Below are positions 1 to 5,826 of a stretch of 64,000 nucleotides of DNA, one piece after another. Where the stretch lies: the NCBI RefSeq assembly GCF_028737215.1, contig NZ_JAQZAM010000004.1, positions 248,001-312,000 on the forward strand, given 5' to 3'. Position 1 is the first letter of the stretch. Each line of letters begins with the position of its first letter. Under the pieces are notes generated by a model that was not told where the DNA came from, ran no database searches, and was given only the letters and a program-made list of their open reading frames with translations. The position numbers and the translations under genes were made by a program. The DNA is from Actinomycetospora chibensis. GTDB taxonomy: Bacteria > Actinomycetota > Actinomycetes > Mycobacteriales > Pseudonocardiaceae.

Positions 1-282
1 TACTTCTACGGCCCCGGTTCCCTGAACTGCCTGGCCACGCGCGGCTTCCCCACCACGGGCAGCTCGGCGTTCCCCGGCGAGCACAACATCAACGACCAGC
101 TCAAGACCTTCATCTCCGAGGGCGGCAAGGCCTACTGCTGCCGCTTCGGGCTGTCGCTGCACGGTGCCCGCGAGGAGGACCTCATCGAGGGCGTCATCCC
201 CACGCACCCGCTCGACGTGCAGGACGCGCTCATCCACTTCGCCCGCAAGGGCGCGATCATCAACTCGACCTACCAGCTCTGA
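1..282 (+). CDS. MSMEG_0572/Sll0783 family nitrogen-starvation protein, 3' part only
   Basis: The window opens inside this gene. The readable 93 codons start YFYGPGSLNCLATRGFP and end INSTYQL-stop. I recognise this as the C-terminal half of the MSMEG_0572/Sll0783 family (NitB of the Nit1C cluster), a small protein of unknown biochemistry that travels with Nit6803-type nitrilase clusters. Visible traits are a paired Cys (YCCRFGLSLHG) and a conserved end, ARKGAIINSTYQL. It is followed 86 bp later by the radical SAM gene and is probably the promoter-proximal part of the same operon. The start lies outside the window. Family assignment rests on recalled sequence and on the neighbours. Confidence 0.8.
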   Translation, partial: YFYGPGSLNCLATRGFPTTGSSAFPGEHNINDQLKTFISEGGKAYCCRFGLSLHGAREEDLIEGVIPTHPLDVQDALIHFARKGAIINSTYQL

Positions 283-368: not shown

Positions 369-1508
369 ATGTCGTCCCCGCAATCCGACCTGGGCCTGTC
401 CGCCCGTTCCGAAGTGGCCGTCCGCGGTGTGGCGCTCGACCTCCCCTCCGACGAGCCGACCACCTCGGTGGACCTCGGCTCCACCATCCCCCTGCGCCGC
501 CCCGGCGGCGCCGGACCGTCCGCCGACGGCCACGTGCTCGTCGACGGCCTCAGGACCACGATCCCGATCAACCCGGCGAGCCCCTACCGGCTGCGCGACG
601 GGCGCCTCGTGCGCACCGGTCCCGACGGCGGGGTCACCGACCTGGGCGTCGAGGTCGCCACCGTCGCCCGCCCCGCGTTCTACGACCTCACGACGGCCGA
701 CGGCGTGCCCTACGAGAAGATCGCCCGCCTGCACGGCGACGACGTGCTCGCGACGACGGTCGTGCAGACCTGCGTGCGCTACGGCGAGCAGGACCGCTGC
801 CGGTTCTGCGCCATCGAGCAGTCGCTGCGCACCGGCGCCACGACCGCGGTGAAGACGCCCGAGCAGCTCGCGGAGGTCGCCGAGGCCGCGGTCCGCCTCG
901 ACGGCGTGCGGCAGATGGTGCTGACCACCGGGACGAGCAACGGCCGCGACCGCGGCGCCCGACACCTCGCCCGTTGCGTCCGGGCGATCAGGGCGGCGGT
1001 GCCGGGCCTGCCGATCCAGGTGCAGTGCGAGCCGCCCGCGCCCTCCGACCTCGCGGCCCTGCAGGAGCTCCGCGACGCCGGCGCCGACGCCATCGGCATC
1101 CACGTCGAGTCCCTCGACGACGACGTGCGCGCACGCTGGATGCCGGGCAAGGCGTCCGTGCCCCTGTCCCAGTACCGGCTGGCCTGGGACGAGAGCGTCC
1201 GCCTCTTCGGCCCGAACGCCGTCTCGACCTACCTCATCGTCGGCCTCGGCGAGGACCCCGACGAGCTGGTCGCCGGCGCCGCCGAGCTCGTCGACCGCGG
1301 CGTCTACCCGTTCGTCGTCCCCTACCGCCCGATCCCGGGCACCCTGGCGTTCGCCGACGGCGACCCCGCGCCGGATCCCGAGCTGCTCGCCGAGGTCACC
1401 GCCCGCGTCGCCAAGATCCTCGTCGCCGCCGGCATGCGCGGCGCCGACCAGGCCGCCGGATGCGCGGCGTGCGGTGCGTGCTCGGCGCTGTCCGCGGCGG
1501 GGGGCTGA
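369..1508 (+). CDS. MSMEG_0568 family radical SAM protein (NitD-like)
   Basis: 379-residue radical SAM protein of the Nit1C cluster; the substrate is unknown. The Fe-S motif is C135-X8-C144-X2-C147 (TCVRYGEQDRCRFCAIEQ), not the usual CX3CX2C. After it come the expected barrel features, including QMVLTTGTSNGRDRG and VQCEPPAP. The last ten residues hold a second tight triplet, C365-X2-C368-X2-C371, which could bind another cluster. The ATG at 369 was preferred over an upstream in-frame start because the upstream extension is low-complexity and an SD-like GGAGG lies just before the ATG. The next gene begins 5 bp after the stop, so translation is probably coupled. Confidence 0.88.
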   Translation: MSSPQSDLGLSARSEVAVRGVALDLPSDEPTTSVDLGSTIPLRRPGGAGPSADGHVLVDGLRTTIPINPASPYRLRDGRLVRTGPDGGVTDLGVEVATVARPAFYDLTTADGVPYEKIARLHGDDVLATTVVQTCVRYGEQDRCRFCAIEQSLRTGATTAVKTPEQLAEVAEAAVRLDGVRQMVLTTGTSNGRDRGARHLARCVRAIRAAVPGLPIQVQCEPPAPSDLAALQELRDAGADAIGIHVESLDDDVRARWMPGKASVPLSQYRLAWDESVRLFGPNAVSTYLIVGLGEDPDELVAGAAELVDRGVYPFVVPYRPIPGTLAFADGDPAPDPELLAEVTARVAKILVAAGMRGADQAAGCAACGACSALSAAGG

Positions 1509-1513
1509 GGTCC

Positions 1514-3010
1514 GTGTCGATCCTCGACGACCACGCGTTCGGGCTCGGCGCCGCCGACGAGATCCTCGGCGGCCGGGCGCGCCGCCGTCCCCACGACGTC
1601 ACGATCACCGAGGCGCCGGCGATCGACGCCCGGCACCCCGACGTGGTCGCCCACCGGGCGCTGCGGCGCGCGGTCTTCGTCGACGAGCAGGGCCTCTTCC
1701 CGGGCGGAGCGGCCGGCGACCTCGACGGGCACGACCACGACCCGCGCGCGATCGTCCTCGTCGCCCGCGACGGAGCCGGCGAGGTCCTCGGCGGGGTGCG
1801 TCTGGCCCCCGTCGACCCCGACGCCTCGCGTCCCGACCTCGGCTGGTGGACGGGCAGCCGCCTCGTCGTCGCCCCGACGGCGCGCCGACGGGCGGGCGTG
1901 CGGGTGGGGGCCGCGCTGGTGCGCGCCGCGTGCGCCCGCGCCGAGGCCGCCGGCGTGCTGCGGTTCGAGGCCGAGGTCCAGGCCGCCAACGAGACACTGT
2001 TCGCGCGCCTCGGCTGGCAGCGACTGCGGGACACGACGGTCGCCGGCCGCCCGCACGTGCGCATGCGCCGGCCGATGGGTCGCTTCGCCGACCTCGTCGC
2101 CGCCACGAAGGCCCCGCTCGGCGAGCTCGTCGCCGGGCTCGCGGGCTCGGGCCTGCACGTCGGCGACGACGGGGCCCCCGTGCCGGGCAGCGACCTCGTC
2201 GCGGCGTGCGACGCGATCCTGCCCGCGATGGTCGAGCGCGACCCGGAGTGGGCGGGCTGGTGCGGGGTGCTCGTCAACGTCAACGACCTCGCCGCGATGG
2301 GGGCGGCGCCGACCGCCCTGCTCGACGCCGTCGGGGCGCGCGACGCGTCGTTCGCGCACCGCGTGCTGACGGGTCTGCGCGCCGCCGCCGACGCCTACGG
2401 GGTGCCGGTGATCGGCGGGCACACCCAGCTCGAGGTGCCCGCCTCGCTCGCCGTCACCGCGCTGGGCCGCACCGCGAGCCCCGTCCCCGCCGCGGGCGGG
2501 CGGACGGGCATGGAGGTCCGGCTGACCGCCGACCTCGCCGGCACCTGGCGCCCGGGCTACACCGGTCGGCAATGGGACTCCACGTCGACCCGCGCGCCCG
2601 CCGACCTGCGGGCGATGGTCGCGGCGATCGGCCCGGACGCGCGTCACCGGCCCGCCGCGGCCAAGGACGTCTCGATGGCCGGGGTCGTCGGGACGCTCGG
2701 GATGCTCGCCGAGGCTTCGGGCACCGGCGCGGTGCTCGACGTCGCGGCCGTCCCGCGTCCGGTCGGCGCGACCGTCGCCGACTGGCTCACCTGCTTCCCC
2801 GGCTTCGCTCTGCTCACCGCCGACGCGCCCGGCGCCCCCGCCCCGTCGGCGGGTCCCGTCACGAGCGCGGTGTGCGGGGTGCTCACGGACCCGGCGACCG
2901 GACCGGCCGGGGTCGCCCTGCGCTGGCCCGACGGCGAGGTCACCGAGGCCGTCGCCGGGGCCGTCACCGGACTGGGCAGCGCCCGGATCAGCGAAGGGAA
3001 CCACCCGTGA
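1514..3010 (+). CDS. Fused GNAT acetyltransferase (MSMEG_0567/Sll0786) and AIR-synthase-like protein (Sll0787)
   Basis: 498 residues in two parts. Residues about 30-195 form a GNAT fold (RAVFVDEQGLFPGG, then the acetyl-CoA region GVRVGAALVRAACARAE and NETLFARLGWQRL). Residues about 200-495 resemble AIR synthase/PurM-like ATP-binding proteins (VLVNVNDLAAMGAAPTALLDA, GVPVIGGHTQLEVPA, AAAKDVSMAGVVGTLGMLAE). In cyanobacteria these are separate adjacent genes (sll0786, sll0787); here they are one reading frame. GTG 1514 is chosen because it lies 5 bp past the preceding stop. The stop overlaps the next start (GTGA). The reaction is unknown; a carrier-ligand or purine-like ATP chemistry is only inference. 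Confidence 0.88.
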   Translation: MSILDDHAFGLGAADEILGGRARRRPHDVTITEAPAIDARHPDVVAHRALRRAVFVDEQGLFPGGAAGDLDGHDHDPRAIVLVARDGAGEVLGGVRLAPVDPDASRPDLGWWTGSRLVVAPTARRRAGVRVGAALVRAACARAEAAGVLRFEAEVQAANETLFARLGWQRLRDTTVAGRPHVRMRRPMGRFADLVAATKAPLGELVAGLAGSGLHVGDDGAPVPGSDLVAACDAILPAMVERDPEWAGWCGVLVNVNDLAAMGAAPTALLDAVGARDASFAHRVLTGLRAAADAYGVPVIGGHTQLEVPASLAVTALGRTASPVPAAGGRTGMEVRLTADLAGTWRPGYTGRQWDSTSTRAPADLRAMVAAIGPDARHRPAAAKDVSMAGVVGTLGMLAEASGTGAVLDVAAVPRPVGATVADWLTCFPGFALLTADAPGAPAPSAGPVTSAVCGVLTDPATGPAGVALRWPDGEVTEAVAGAVTGLGSARISEGNHP

Positions 3011-3894
3011 CCGTGAGGACGTTCGCCGCCGCGGCCGCCGGCTTCGGCCGCGACCTGGACGAGAGCTTCGCGACGATCTCGTCGCTGCTCGAGCGGGCGC
3101 GGGCGGCGGGGGCCGACGTGCTGGCCCTGCCCGAGGCCGCGCTCGGGGGCTACCTGTCGTCGCTGCACGACGACCCTGAGGACGTGCCGCCACAGCTGGA
3201 CGTCGACGGGCCCGAGATCCGCCGCCTGATCGCGCTGGCCGGGGACACGGTCGTCACGGTCGGCTTCTGCGAGCGCGGGGACGGGGCATCCGGCGACCGT
3301 CCGTACAACAGCTGCGTCGCGGTGACCGGCGACGGCGTGCTCGGTCATCACCGCAAGGTCCACCAGCCGCTCAACGAGAACACCTCGTACGCCGCGGGCG
3401 ACCGTTTCGCGGCGTTCGACACGCCGGTCGGGCGGATGGGCATGATGATCTGCTACGACAAGGCGTTCCCCGAGGCCGCGCGCGCCCTCGCGGTCGACGG
3501 GGCCCGGATCGTGGTGTGCATGTCGGCGTGGCCGGCGTCGCGCACCAACCCGGCATCGGTGCTCGCCGACGACCGCTGGACCCGCCGGTTCGACCTCTTC
3601 GACCGCGCCCGGGCGCTGGAGAACCAGATCGTCTGGGTCTCGGCGAACCAGGCCGGGACGTTCGGGGACATGCACCTCGTCGCGAGCGCGAAGATCGTCG
3701 ACCCGGGCGGGGAGGTCCTCGACACCACCGGGACCGAGGCCGGCCTCGCGGTGGCGTCGGTCGACGTCGACGCCACCGTGGACGCCGCGCGCCGCTTCAT
3801 GGGCCACCTGCGCGACCGGCGGCCGGCGTCGTACCTCGGCACGCCGGACGACGCGCCGCCCGTCGTGCCCGCCGTCGCCGCGCGCGCCAGCTAG
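3007..3894 (+). CDS. Carbon-nitrogen hydrolase, nitrilase superfamily, catalytically intact
   Basis: 295-residue nitrilase-superfamily enzyme. The catalytic residues are all visible: E43 in LALPEAALGGY, K117 in HHRKVHQP, and C149 in GRMGMMICYDKAFPE. Family knowledge: this fold hydrolyses nitriles or amides through a Cys thioester; nitrilases of Nit1C clusters have been linked to cyanide use as a nitrogen source in bacteria. The GTG start at 3007 shares four bases with the previous stop. The C-terminus (after residue 280) is Ala/Pro-rich and probably disordered. A degenerate paralogue follows 10 bp downstream. The substrate cannot be read from sequence. Confidence 0.9.
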   Translation: MTVRTFAAAAAGFGRDLDESFATISSLLERARAAGADVLALPEAALGGYLSSLHDDPEDVPPQLDVDGPEIRRLIALAGDTVVTVGFCERGDGASGDRPYNSCVAVTGDGVLGHHRKVHQPLNENTSYAAGDRFAAFDTPVGRMGMMICYDKAFPEAARALAVDGARIVVCMSAWPASRTNPASVLADDRWTRRFDLFDRARALENQIVWVSANQAGTFGDMHLVASAKIVDPGGEVLDTTGTEAGLAVASVDVDATVDAARRFMGHLRDRRPASYLGTPDDAPPVVPAVAARAS

Positions 3895-3904
3895 GCGCGC
3901 GCGG

Positions 3905-4738
3905 GTGGTCCGTCTCGCCGCCGCCGCGGCCCACTTCACGCGGGACATCGGGTTCGACCTCGACCGCATCAAGATGATCATCTCGCACGCGCGGGACGCC
4001 GGGGTCTCCCTGCTGGCGCTGCCCGACGGCGCGCTCGGGGGGTACCTCACGGACCTGCGCGGACCCGACGAGGACGACCTGCCGCCGCTGCTGGAGCCGA
4101 ACGGCGACGAGGTGCGCTCCGTGATCGACTTCGCCGGTGACATGGTGGTGTGCCTCGGGTACAGCGAGCGGGGTCTCGACGACGGGAACGGGCTGGTCCG
4201 CTACGACGCGGCGGTCTGCCTCTCCGGTGACGGCATCCTCGGGCGGCACCGCAAGGTCCACCTGCCCGCCGGCGTCGCGTCGCTGTTCACGGCGGGGGAC
4301 GGGTTCCGCGCGTTCGACACCCCGGTGGGCCGGATGGGCCTGCTCATCGACCACGACAAGACCTTCCCGGAGGCGGCGCGCACCCTGGCCGTCGACGGCG
4401 CCGAGATCATCGCGTGCCTCTCCGCCTGGCCGACCTCGCTGACCAACCGCGCGCCGCGGATGGCGCTGGACCGCCAGGCGCGGTTGTTCGACCTCTACGA
4501 CCAGGCGCGCGCCGCGGAGAACCAGGTCGTCTGGCTGTCGTCGAACCAGAGCGGGCGCTACGGCGCGCTGCACTTCCTGGGCCGGGCGAAGGTCGTCGGG
4601 CCGGGTGGGGAGATCCTCGCGCGGACCTGGTCGAAGGGCGGGCTGGCGGTGGCGGAGGTCGACCTCCCGGAGCTGGTCGGGGCGGCGCGGACGGTGCTGC
4701 ACCACCTCGCCGAGCGTCGTCCGGAGACCTACGGTTGA
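3905..4738 (+). CDS. Nitrilase-superfamily paralogue lacking the catalytic Cys and Glu (probable pseudoenzyme)
   Basis: 277-residue close paralogue of the preceding nitrilase, alignable end to end without gaps at the active site. The Lys is kept (K117, GRHRKVHLP), but the Glu is Asp (D41, LALPDGALGGY) and the nucleophilic Cys is Asp (D149, GRMGLLIDHDKTFPE, where the paralogue has MICYDK). Neighbouring conserved blocks (AENQVVWLSSNQSGRYG, near the C-terminus) are intact and the frame is open, so this is not a decaying gene. It is likely a non-catalytic partner or regulator of the active nitrilase, or an enzyme of changed chemistry. GTG 3905 is used; the stop overlaps a possible TTG of the next gene. 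Confidence 0.85.
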   Translation: MVRLAAAAAHFTRDIGFDLDRIKMIISHARDAGVSLLALPDGALGGYLTDLRGPDEDDLPPLLEPNGDEVRSVIDFAGDMVVCLGYSERGLDDGNGLVRYDAAVCLSGDGILGRHRKVHLPAGVASLFTAGDGFRAFDTPVGRMGLLIDHDKTFPEAARTLAVDGAEIIACLSAWPTSLTNRAPRMALDRQARLFDLYDQARAAENQVVWLSSNQSGRYGALHFLGRAKVVGPGGEILARTWSKGGLAVAEVDLPELVGAARTVLHHLAERRPETYG

Positions 4739-4740
4739 TC

Positions 4741-5826
4741 GTGCGGATCGCCCTGCTGACCTACTCGACGAAGCCGCGCGGCGGTGTGGTGCACACCCTC
4801 GCCCTGGCCGAGGCGTTCGCCCGCGCCGGGCACGCAGTGACGGTGTGGGCGCTGGCGCGGGGCGGGGACACGGGCTTCTTCCGTCCCGTCGACGCCGCGG
4901 TGGACGTCCGGCTGGTGCCCGTCGAGGAGGTCGAGGGCGAGACGGTGGGGGAGCGGATCCTGCGGTCGATCGCGCTGCTGGCGTCGGCGTTCGAGGGCTC
5001 GTACGACGTGGTGCACGCGCAGGACTGCCTGACGGCGAACGCCGTGGGCCGCGCGCGGGGGTACGCGGGGCTCTGGCGGACCGTGCACCACCTCGACGAG
5101 TTCACGACGCCCGAGCTCGCCGCCTGCCACGAGCGGGCGCTGGTGGAGCCGGCGTCGCTGGTGTGCGTCTCGGAGGCGGTGGCGGGCGAGGTCCGGGCGG
5201 GCTGGGGCCGCTCGCCCGCGGTGATCTCCAACGGGGTGGCCGCGGCGCGCTTCGCCCGCGCGGCCGAGGCCGGGGCCGGGGAGCCGTGGCGCGCGCGGTA
5301 CGGGCGCTACGTGCTCGCCGTCGGGGGGATCGAGCCGCGCAAGGGGACGCTGGAGCTGGTGGAGGCGATGGCGCGTCTCCCCGGCGTGCCGTTGCTCGTG
5401 GCGGGCGGGGACACCCTGTTCGACTACCGGCCCTACCGCGGGGAGGTGTTCGCGCGCGCGGCGTCGCTGGGCGTGGAGCCCGTGGTGCTCGGCCCGGTCG
5501 ACGACGCCGACCTGCCGGGCCTGGTGGCGGGCGCCGCGGTGTTCGCGTTCCCGTCGACGAAGGAGGGCTTCGGGCTCGCGGCGATGGAGGCGCTCGCGGC
5601 CGGCGTCCCGCTCGTGACCCGTGACCTGCCGGTGCTGCGCGAGGTGTTCGCCGGCGCGGCGCGCTTCGCCGACGGCCCGGAGGGCTTCGCGCGCGAGATC
5701 GCGGGGGTGCTCGAGGGGACCGACCCGGACCTCGACCCCGCCCACGCGACCGTCGGCCGCGCCCTGGCCGCCGCGCACACCTGGGACGCCGCCGCCGAGG
5801 CGCACCTCGCCCTGTACCGGCACTGA
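4741..5826 (+). CDS. MSMEG_0565 family glycosyltransferase (GT4-like)
   Basis: 361-residue GT-B fold glycosyltransferase, the type found at the end of mycobacterial Nit1C clusters. It has an N-terminal RIALLTYSTKPRGGVVHT with a Gly-rich loop, then YDVVHAQDCLTANA, the second-domain opener YVLAVGGIEPRKGTLELVEA, and the nucleotide-sugar block AFPSTKEGFGLAAMEALAAG typical of GT4. The start is GTG 4741; an in-frame TTG at 4735 overlapping the previous stop is the alternative. Donor and acceptor are unknown. Its position suggests that the Nit1C product is a glycosylated small molecule, but that is inference. Confidence 0.85.
   Translation: MRIALLTYSTKPRGGVVHTLALAEAFARAGHAVTVWALARGGDTGFFRPVDAAVDVRLVPVEEVEGETVGERILRSIALLASAFEGSYDVVHAQDCLTANAVGRARGYAGLWRTVHHLDEFTTPELAACHERALVEPASLVCVSEAVAGEVRAGWGRSPAVISNGVAAARFARAAEAGAGEPWRARYGRYVLAVGGIEPRKGTLELVEAMARLPGVPLLVAGGDTLFDYRPYRGEVFARAASLGVEPVVLGPVDDADLPGLVAGAAVFAFPSTKEGFGLAAMEALAAGVPLVTRDLPVLREVFAGAARFADGPEGFAREIAGVLEGTDPDLDPAHATVGRALAAAHTWDAAAEAHLALYRH

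Follow-up and report, generated by a model that had tools for sequence, protein, structure and literature searches.

The gpr operon of M. smegmatis (MSMEG_0565-0572) is induced through GlnR, and strains lacking it show reduced survival of peroxide and a lower NADPH/NADP ratio under nitrogen starvation, a phenotype that the authors could not assign to single genes (PMC6039565). In the same report MSMEG_0566 is called a "putative aliphatic amidase" and is treated as feeding nitrogen assimilation. Transcriptome tables list values of 8.94 for msmeg_0566 ('aliphatic amidase') and 48.04 for msmeg_0571 ('hydrolase, carbon-nitrogen family') (PMC4222082), and of 2.96 and 4.06, respectively, in continuous culture (PMC4617892). 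The Nit1C cluster, as first described by Podar et al. in 2005, includes a subfamily-1 nitrilase (PMC1199592). The present analysis concerns a gpr-type cluster that opens a stretch of 64,000 nucleotides (nt) from Actinomycetospora chibensis (hereafter the window), and in particular two adjacent genes in it, named A and B, which code for proteins with the fold of the carbon-nitrogen (C-N) hydrolases. A keeps the catalytic Cys of this superfamily. B belongs to an old, well-conserved, single actinobacterial clade in which the Cys nucleophile was swapped once for Asp.

The window shares with the gpr operon the genes of families 0572, 0568, 0567 and 0565 (MSMEG numbers), together with the C-N hydrolases. 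The set is incomplete, since the 0569 gene lies on another contig and a search of the window's genome gave no match for 0570. Mycolicibacterium neoaurum (L142) has these genes in the order A, an open reading frame (ORF) of 98 amino acids (aa), 0569, radical SAM, a gene fusing a GNAT and an AIR-synthase-like domain (GNAT-AIR), B (DKED) and glycosyltransferase. This runs parallel to MSMEG_0571 to 0565, which by position only places A at 0571 and B at MSMEG_0566; the Asp at the nucleophile site of B argues against amidase chemistry there. A UGA read-through from MSMEG_0571 into 0569, yielding a selenoprotein, has been proposed (PMC6039565). The A gene of the window ends in TAG (3892-3894) and its 0569 lies on another contig, so that read-through of this kind does not hold for the cluster in general. 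The window and Nit1C (PMC1199592) have in common the genes for radical SAM, GNAT and AIR-synthase-like proteins and for ORF1 (0572/Sll0783), and the strand-wise array of Nit1C is present, the models TIGR04043, TIGR04045 and TIGR04050 all matching above their cut-offs. The window differs from Nit1C in having two other C-N hydrolases in place of Nit6803, plus a glycosyltransferase gene, as well as in the displaced 0569 and the unmatched 0570. A scored 23.6 bits against the Nit6803 nitrilase model TIGR04048 (cut-off 502.6), and neither the cluster nor the genome yielded a subfamily-1 (Nit6803) nitrilase in a profile search, in which A itself scored best (21.4 bits). The first-pass annotation of this DNA had placed the pair in a Nit1C cluster; as first defined, that term does not apply, since A is not a nitrilase of this subfamily.

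The global alignment of A and B contained 146 identities and 129 mismatches (53% identity), and its three active-site blocks were free of gaps. The residues read directly are E43/K117/E124/C149 in A and D41/K117/V124/D149 in B. The first-pass annotation had given three of these pairs, correctly, but had missed the second catalytic Glu of the superfamily, present as E124 in A and replaced by V124 in B; an alignment with PH0642 (3ivz) equates its E120 with position 124 and its C146 with position 149. Since V124 is altered in B as well as D41 and D149, Lys is the only one of the four catalytic residues that is unchanged. A thus has the Glu-Lys-Cys triad plus the second Glu of the superfamily enzymes, and B does not. 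Both reading frames are open and both proteins exceed the PF00795 gathering score of 23.2 bits (scores in Table 1), in agreement with the earlier description of B as a full-length paralogue keeping Lys and fold. The best NCBIfam matches of A were the N-carbamoylputrescine amidase and archaeal nitrilase models, both far below cut-off. Calling A an active nitrilase, as the first-pass annotation did, is an assumption. The paralogues present in the same genome (L003 and L004) are distant, with 29% and 26% identity, and were excluded from later trees as too long.

AlphaFold2 models had a mean predicted local distance difference test (pLDDT) score of 94.3 for B and 94.2 for A, and in both a short helix begins at residue 149, as expected at the nucleophile position. 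The nearest structural neighbour of B according to Foldseek was PH0642, and the best 50 matches listed were all C-N hydrolases. PH0642-type archaeal nitrilases/amidases (3ivz, 1j31, 6ypa) were also the best match of B by sequence in a copy of the PDB (75.2 bits), a search that revealed no close solved relative. They share the fold of B at 26-28% identity; C146, E42 and E120 of PH0642 correspond to D149, D41 and V124 of B. The 6ypa structure is a man-made C146A form.

B was matched in 17 of the 18 genomes of the genus, the missing one being 59% complete. At the level of the family, 73 of 297 sampled genomes had a match to A or B; the corresponding counts were 65 of 397 for the order and 9 of 396 for the phylum. 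These samples were drawn from larger groups and weighted toward the window's family, and the E-value limits of 1e-30 to 1e-50 would miss very divergent relatives. Catalytic residues were read in all 124 distinct genomes with a match, in searches that left residue 149 unconstrained, the class of each protein being assigned by similarity (16 A rows and one B row, short or without residue 149, were dropped). All 115 distinct B proteins had Asp149, while Lys117 was present in 114, Asp41 in 112 and Glu124 in 91. The A-type proteins had E-K-E-C in 118 of 123 cases, a count that takes in sister proteins and four degenerate copies; the remainder were these four standalone copies, from family f13, and one truncated row. 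The four copies (L195, L196, L197 and L198, in genomes G330, G338, G308 and G321) are A-like C-N hydrolases located away from the full cluster, with altered or damaged catalytic sets (GN-S, EQDC, D--G and EQ-C).

A pattern scan of named genomes for the Asp form found at least 118 loci, and all of those listed had a B protein. Since the pattern demands Asp149, this set is informative only at the other residues: among the matches listed, K117 was present in 116 of 117, Asp at position 41 in 101 of 117 and E124 in 111 of 117. Of the 118 listed loci, one lies on a 9.6 kb contig of a metagenome-assembled genome of Acidobacteriaceae, whose B groups with the mycobacterial ones (possibly a binning error), and another with a Gloeocapsa taxonomy label is Rhodococcus. 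The Asp variant is therefore not confined to one genome, as a refutation of the first-pass interpretation would have required; it occurs across the genus, the family and the order, and its named actinobacterial families number at least 13, among them Nocardioidaceae, Nocardiaceae, Mycobacteriaceae, Geodermatophilaceae, Kribbellaceae, Frankiaceae and Microbacteriaceae. Asp149 is encoded by GAC in 197 of the 207 distinct B genes and by GAT in the other 10. A Rhodococcus plasmid record labels A and B alike, as 'carbon-nitrogen hydrolase family protein'. The literature searched on nitrilase-superfamily pseudoenzymes, inactive members, Cys-to-Asp forms and MSMEG_0566/0571 held no description of the B clade (subscription papers and supplements lay outside this coverage).

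In trees built without the four catalytic columns, a single C/D change at position 149 suffices. The B clade received a Shimodaira-Hasegawa-like approximate likelihood ratio test (SH-aLRT) value of 94 in a quick tree of 99 rows; in a careful tree of 58 of these rows it received 97 bootstrap and 97 SH-aLRT, and it was present in 98% of 200 bootstrap trees. The B family forms a clade of its own within the C-N hydrolase fold, set apart by the swapped nucleophile. Its nearest Cys-bearing sister proteins in one of the trees are encoded by single genes of distant actinobacterial families (f56 and f35); in the stretches examined around four of them (L227, L229, L234 and L237) no queried Nit1C-like gene was adjacent, and a Pfam scan of seven neighbouring ORFs of two sister proteins returned nothing informative. 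Two simpler origins were considered and rejected. A local degenerate duplicate is at odds with the wide distribution of B, its selection and the fixation of Asp149. A recent tandem duplication is at odds with the separate groups formed by A and B, each spanning many genera, and with the 0570/0569 or other genes that lie between them in many genomes.

Within the genus, the median ratio of nonsynonymous to synonymous substitution rates (dN/dS; pairwise NG86) was 0.223 for B (range 0.034-0.346) and 0.190 for A (0.066-0.348), from 120 non-independent pairs each. B is thus under purifying selection, with a ratio not near 1, and the earlier claim of a selected paralogue stands. Across genera, in alignments of 70 B and 65 A rows chosen by their residue at position 149, the mean entropy of the catalytic loops was 0.39 bits in both classes (other positions, 1.15 in B and 1.18 in A), indicating that the constraint on the pocket is not relaxed. 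Taken together, the fixation of Asp149, the dN/dS and the conserved loops indicate that the Cys chemistry is gone while the pocket is still selected. Eight positions switch between A and B, each class being conserved (C149D, A153T, W191Q, R194L, L204A, V225L, M265L and D270E), and conservation of R182, A183 and R185 is confined to B. Selection, loop conservation, the switches and the B-only residues point to a pocket that was re-tuned rather than abandoned.

Where at least 900 bases were available beyond B, the next gene was the glycosyltransferase in 104 of 113 cases from the unconstrained searches, and in 91 of 94 in the pattern set, among the matches listed. The gene upstream of B varies (n = 115): A in 66 cases, 0569 in 34, GNAT-AIR in 9, 0572 in one and no recognised gene in 5. 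In Nocardioides sp. Root190 (L066), for example, a small 0570-type ORF and the 0569 flavin oxidoreductase gene lie between A and B. The adjacency of A and B that had first been noted is therefore one arrangement among several. Both genes were present in 113 of the 124 genomes, A alone in 9 and B alone in 2; the latter two genomes have a completeness of 84% and 79%, and in one of them a different contig gave an A-like match. Two genomes with A but without B (G279 and G209) hold the whole cluster with A and glycosyltransferase, with no B in the stretch, and in two f56 clusters (L242 and L245) A is present, while neither B nor the glycosyltransferase was seen in the stretches examined. B thus almost always accompanies A, and A can go without B. 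B had been taken for an unusual addition to Nit1C, but it belongs to the regular gene set of the Nit1C-like (gpr) operon in actinobacteria, where it lies beside the glycosyltransferase gene of MSMEG_0565 type.

In G270 the cluster has B without an adjacent A, which lies elsewhere beside 0569 (L200 and L201); this genome also codes for another B-type protein, which stands alone and carries Ala at position 41 (AKED; L199:5295-6083). B-like matches were found in four plasmid records, all from Rhodococcus; one of them, pN9T4-1 of Rhodococcus qingshengii N9T-4 (L304, NZ_AP026692.1), typed as mobilizable, carries a full eight-gene cluster including A and B.

In the window, 0572, radical SAM, GNAT-AIR, A, B and glycosyltransferase genes form a compact array on the + strand (Table 1). 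The GTG start of A overlaps the stop of the GNAT-AIR gene, 10 bases separate A from B, and 2 bases separate B from the glycosyltransferase gene. The stretch L005 extends the window upstream (L005:10001 is window position 1). It contains NarK-type nitrate transporter, uroporphyrinogen-III synthase and CbiX-type genes at L005:4623-7618, a nitrogen-assimilation neighbourhood, and a GlnR-like site, GTCACGACCCCGAAAC, at L005:9546-9561, 218 nt upstream of the 0572 match. Upstream of 0572, the strict GlnR consensus occurred at only 2 of 61 loci, against an expectation of 0.50 by mononucleotide shuffling.

Table 1. Features of the A/B cluster, in window positions.
Feature	Position	Strand	Basis and remarks
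MSMEG_0572/Sll0783-family gene, 3' part	1..282	+	TIGR04044 248.4 bits, cut-off 109.85; start upstream, L005:9764
MSMEG_0568-family radical SAM gene	369..1508	+	TIGR04043 494.9 bits, cut-off 303.7 (scanned from 372); ATG at 369 chosen by eye
MSMEG_0567-type gene, GNAT domain fused to AIR-synthase-like domain	1487..3010	+	TIGR04050 454.4 bits, TIGR04045 91 bits, both above cut-off; start uncertain
A, C-N hydrolase with intact E43-K117-E124-C149, 295 aa	3007..3894	+	PF00795 130.9 bits; residues
C149 codon TGC in A	3451..3453	+	Sequence, residue read
B, full-length C-N-hydrolase-fold paralogue, D41-K117-V124-D149, 277 aa	3905..4738	+	PF00795 103.5 bits; residues; model pLDDT 94.3
D41 codon GAC in B (A: E43)	4025..4027	+	Sequence
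K117 codon AAG in B	4253..4255	+	Sequence
V124 codon GTC in B (A: E124)	4274..4276	+	Sequence
D149 codon GAC in B (A: C149)	4349..4351	+	Sequence
MSMEG_0565-family glycosyltransferase gene, commonest gene after B	4741..5826	+	TIGR04047 423.1 bits, cut-off 259.85 (scanned from 4738)

With Asp at position 149, B should be unable to form a Cys thioester, and would therefore not be an amidase or nitrilase of the known kind. The earlier description of B as catalytically dead holds for the Cys-nucleophile reaction, but not as a statement about all chemistry. We consider it rather probable that B is a neofunctionalised nitrilase-fold protein that uses its D149-K117 pocket on a pathway metabolite. In the former catalytic pocket, the carboxylate of D149 would take the part of the thiolate and pair with K117, giving a stable, charged site. 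This site might bind a metabolite of the operon, or convert it by acid-base chemistry without a thioester, and the same metabolite would also be handled by A, the glycosyltransferase or another enzyme of the cluster. The specificity of B would differ from that of A through the W191Q, R194L, A153T and L204A switches and through R182 and R185. As to how the pocket is used, non-hydrolytic or otherwise altered catalysis is possible, and ligand sensing or carrying is a slightly less likely use. Tentatively, B could be the first nitrilase-fold enzyme from nature to have acquired new chemistry, after a single replacement of the Cys nucleophile by Asp early in actinobacteria, its D149-K117 pocket performing Asp-nucleophile hydrolysis or transfer, or an acid-base lyase or isomerase reaction, on a nitrogen-starvation pathway intermediate, perhaps the acceptor of the glycosyltransferase. 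Several points weigh against a functional pocket. Position 41 underwent 11 changes between Asp and other residues within B (FastTree, 197 B rows), and Glu124 was lost once, in the lineage holding the window (24 of 197 rows; FastTree), so that beyond D149-K117 no catalytic set has been kept constant; even Lys117 is missing from one of the 115 B proteins. The conservation of the loops could instead serve folding or an interface, and in the alignments used for the entropy values the uniformity of position 149 (70/70 and 65/65) is by construction.

An alternative, which we regard as doubtful, is that B is a non-catalytic subunit whose hetero-oligomer with A tunes the stability, the specificity or the nitrogen-status response of the latter. 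The near-constant company of A agrees with this. So do switch sites 191, 194 and 204, which fall in helix 190-206, a dimer surface in this superfamily, where entropy is lower in B (0.29 bits) than in A (0.64 bits). Heteromers of two paralogous nitrilase-type subunits are known from NIT4A and NIT4B2 (PMC5154151), although these are plant enzymes and the accessible part of that paper describes no Cys-to-Asp change for them. However, A lies directly upstream of B in little more than half of the cases, being replaced there mostly by 0569 or GNAT-AIR; no A-B fusion was found among 76 adjacent pairs; and the partial mirror-tree correlation (53 genomes) was 0.07 for A and B, compared with 0.36 for B and radical SAM. 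Further, a pure scaffold needs no conserved pocket. Alpha/beta-hydrolase dehalogenases use Asp in place of Ser/Cys, and Asp149 might likewise be a nucleophile, making B a hydrolase or transferase that works via an Asp-ester or anhydride intermediate. The invariance of D149 at the nucleophile position, with K117 nearly always and E124 usually retained, fits this mechanism, but the residue at base position 41 varies (D, H, G, Y, Q or A) and E124 is gone from the window's own lineage, both of which speak against so demanding a covalent mechanism; no precedent in the superfamily was found in the literature searched, and we consider it unlikely. Finally, a decaying duplicate without function would account for the loss of Cys and Glu, and of the second Glu in the window's lineage, but it is contradicted by the dN/dS of 0.22, by Asp149 in every B protein and by the conserved place in the operon, and is scarcely credible.

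If Asp149 is as fixed as it looks, the amidase role printed for MSMEG_0566, the counterpart of B, cannot rest on Cys chemistry. The B family offers a clean natural experiment, in which one ancient nucleophile swap took place in a large enzyme superfamily and the pocket was kept under selection. The swap sits in an operon whose deletion from a laboratory strain gives a peroxide and nitrogen phenotype (PMC6039565).

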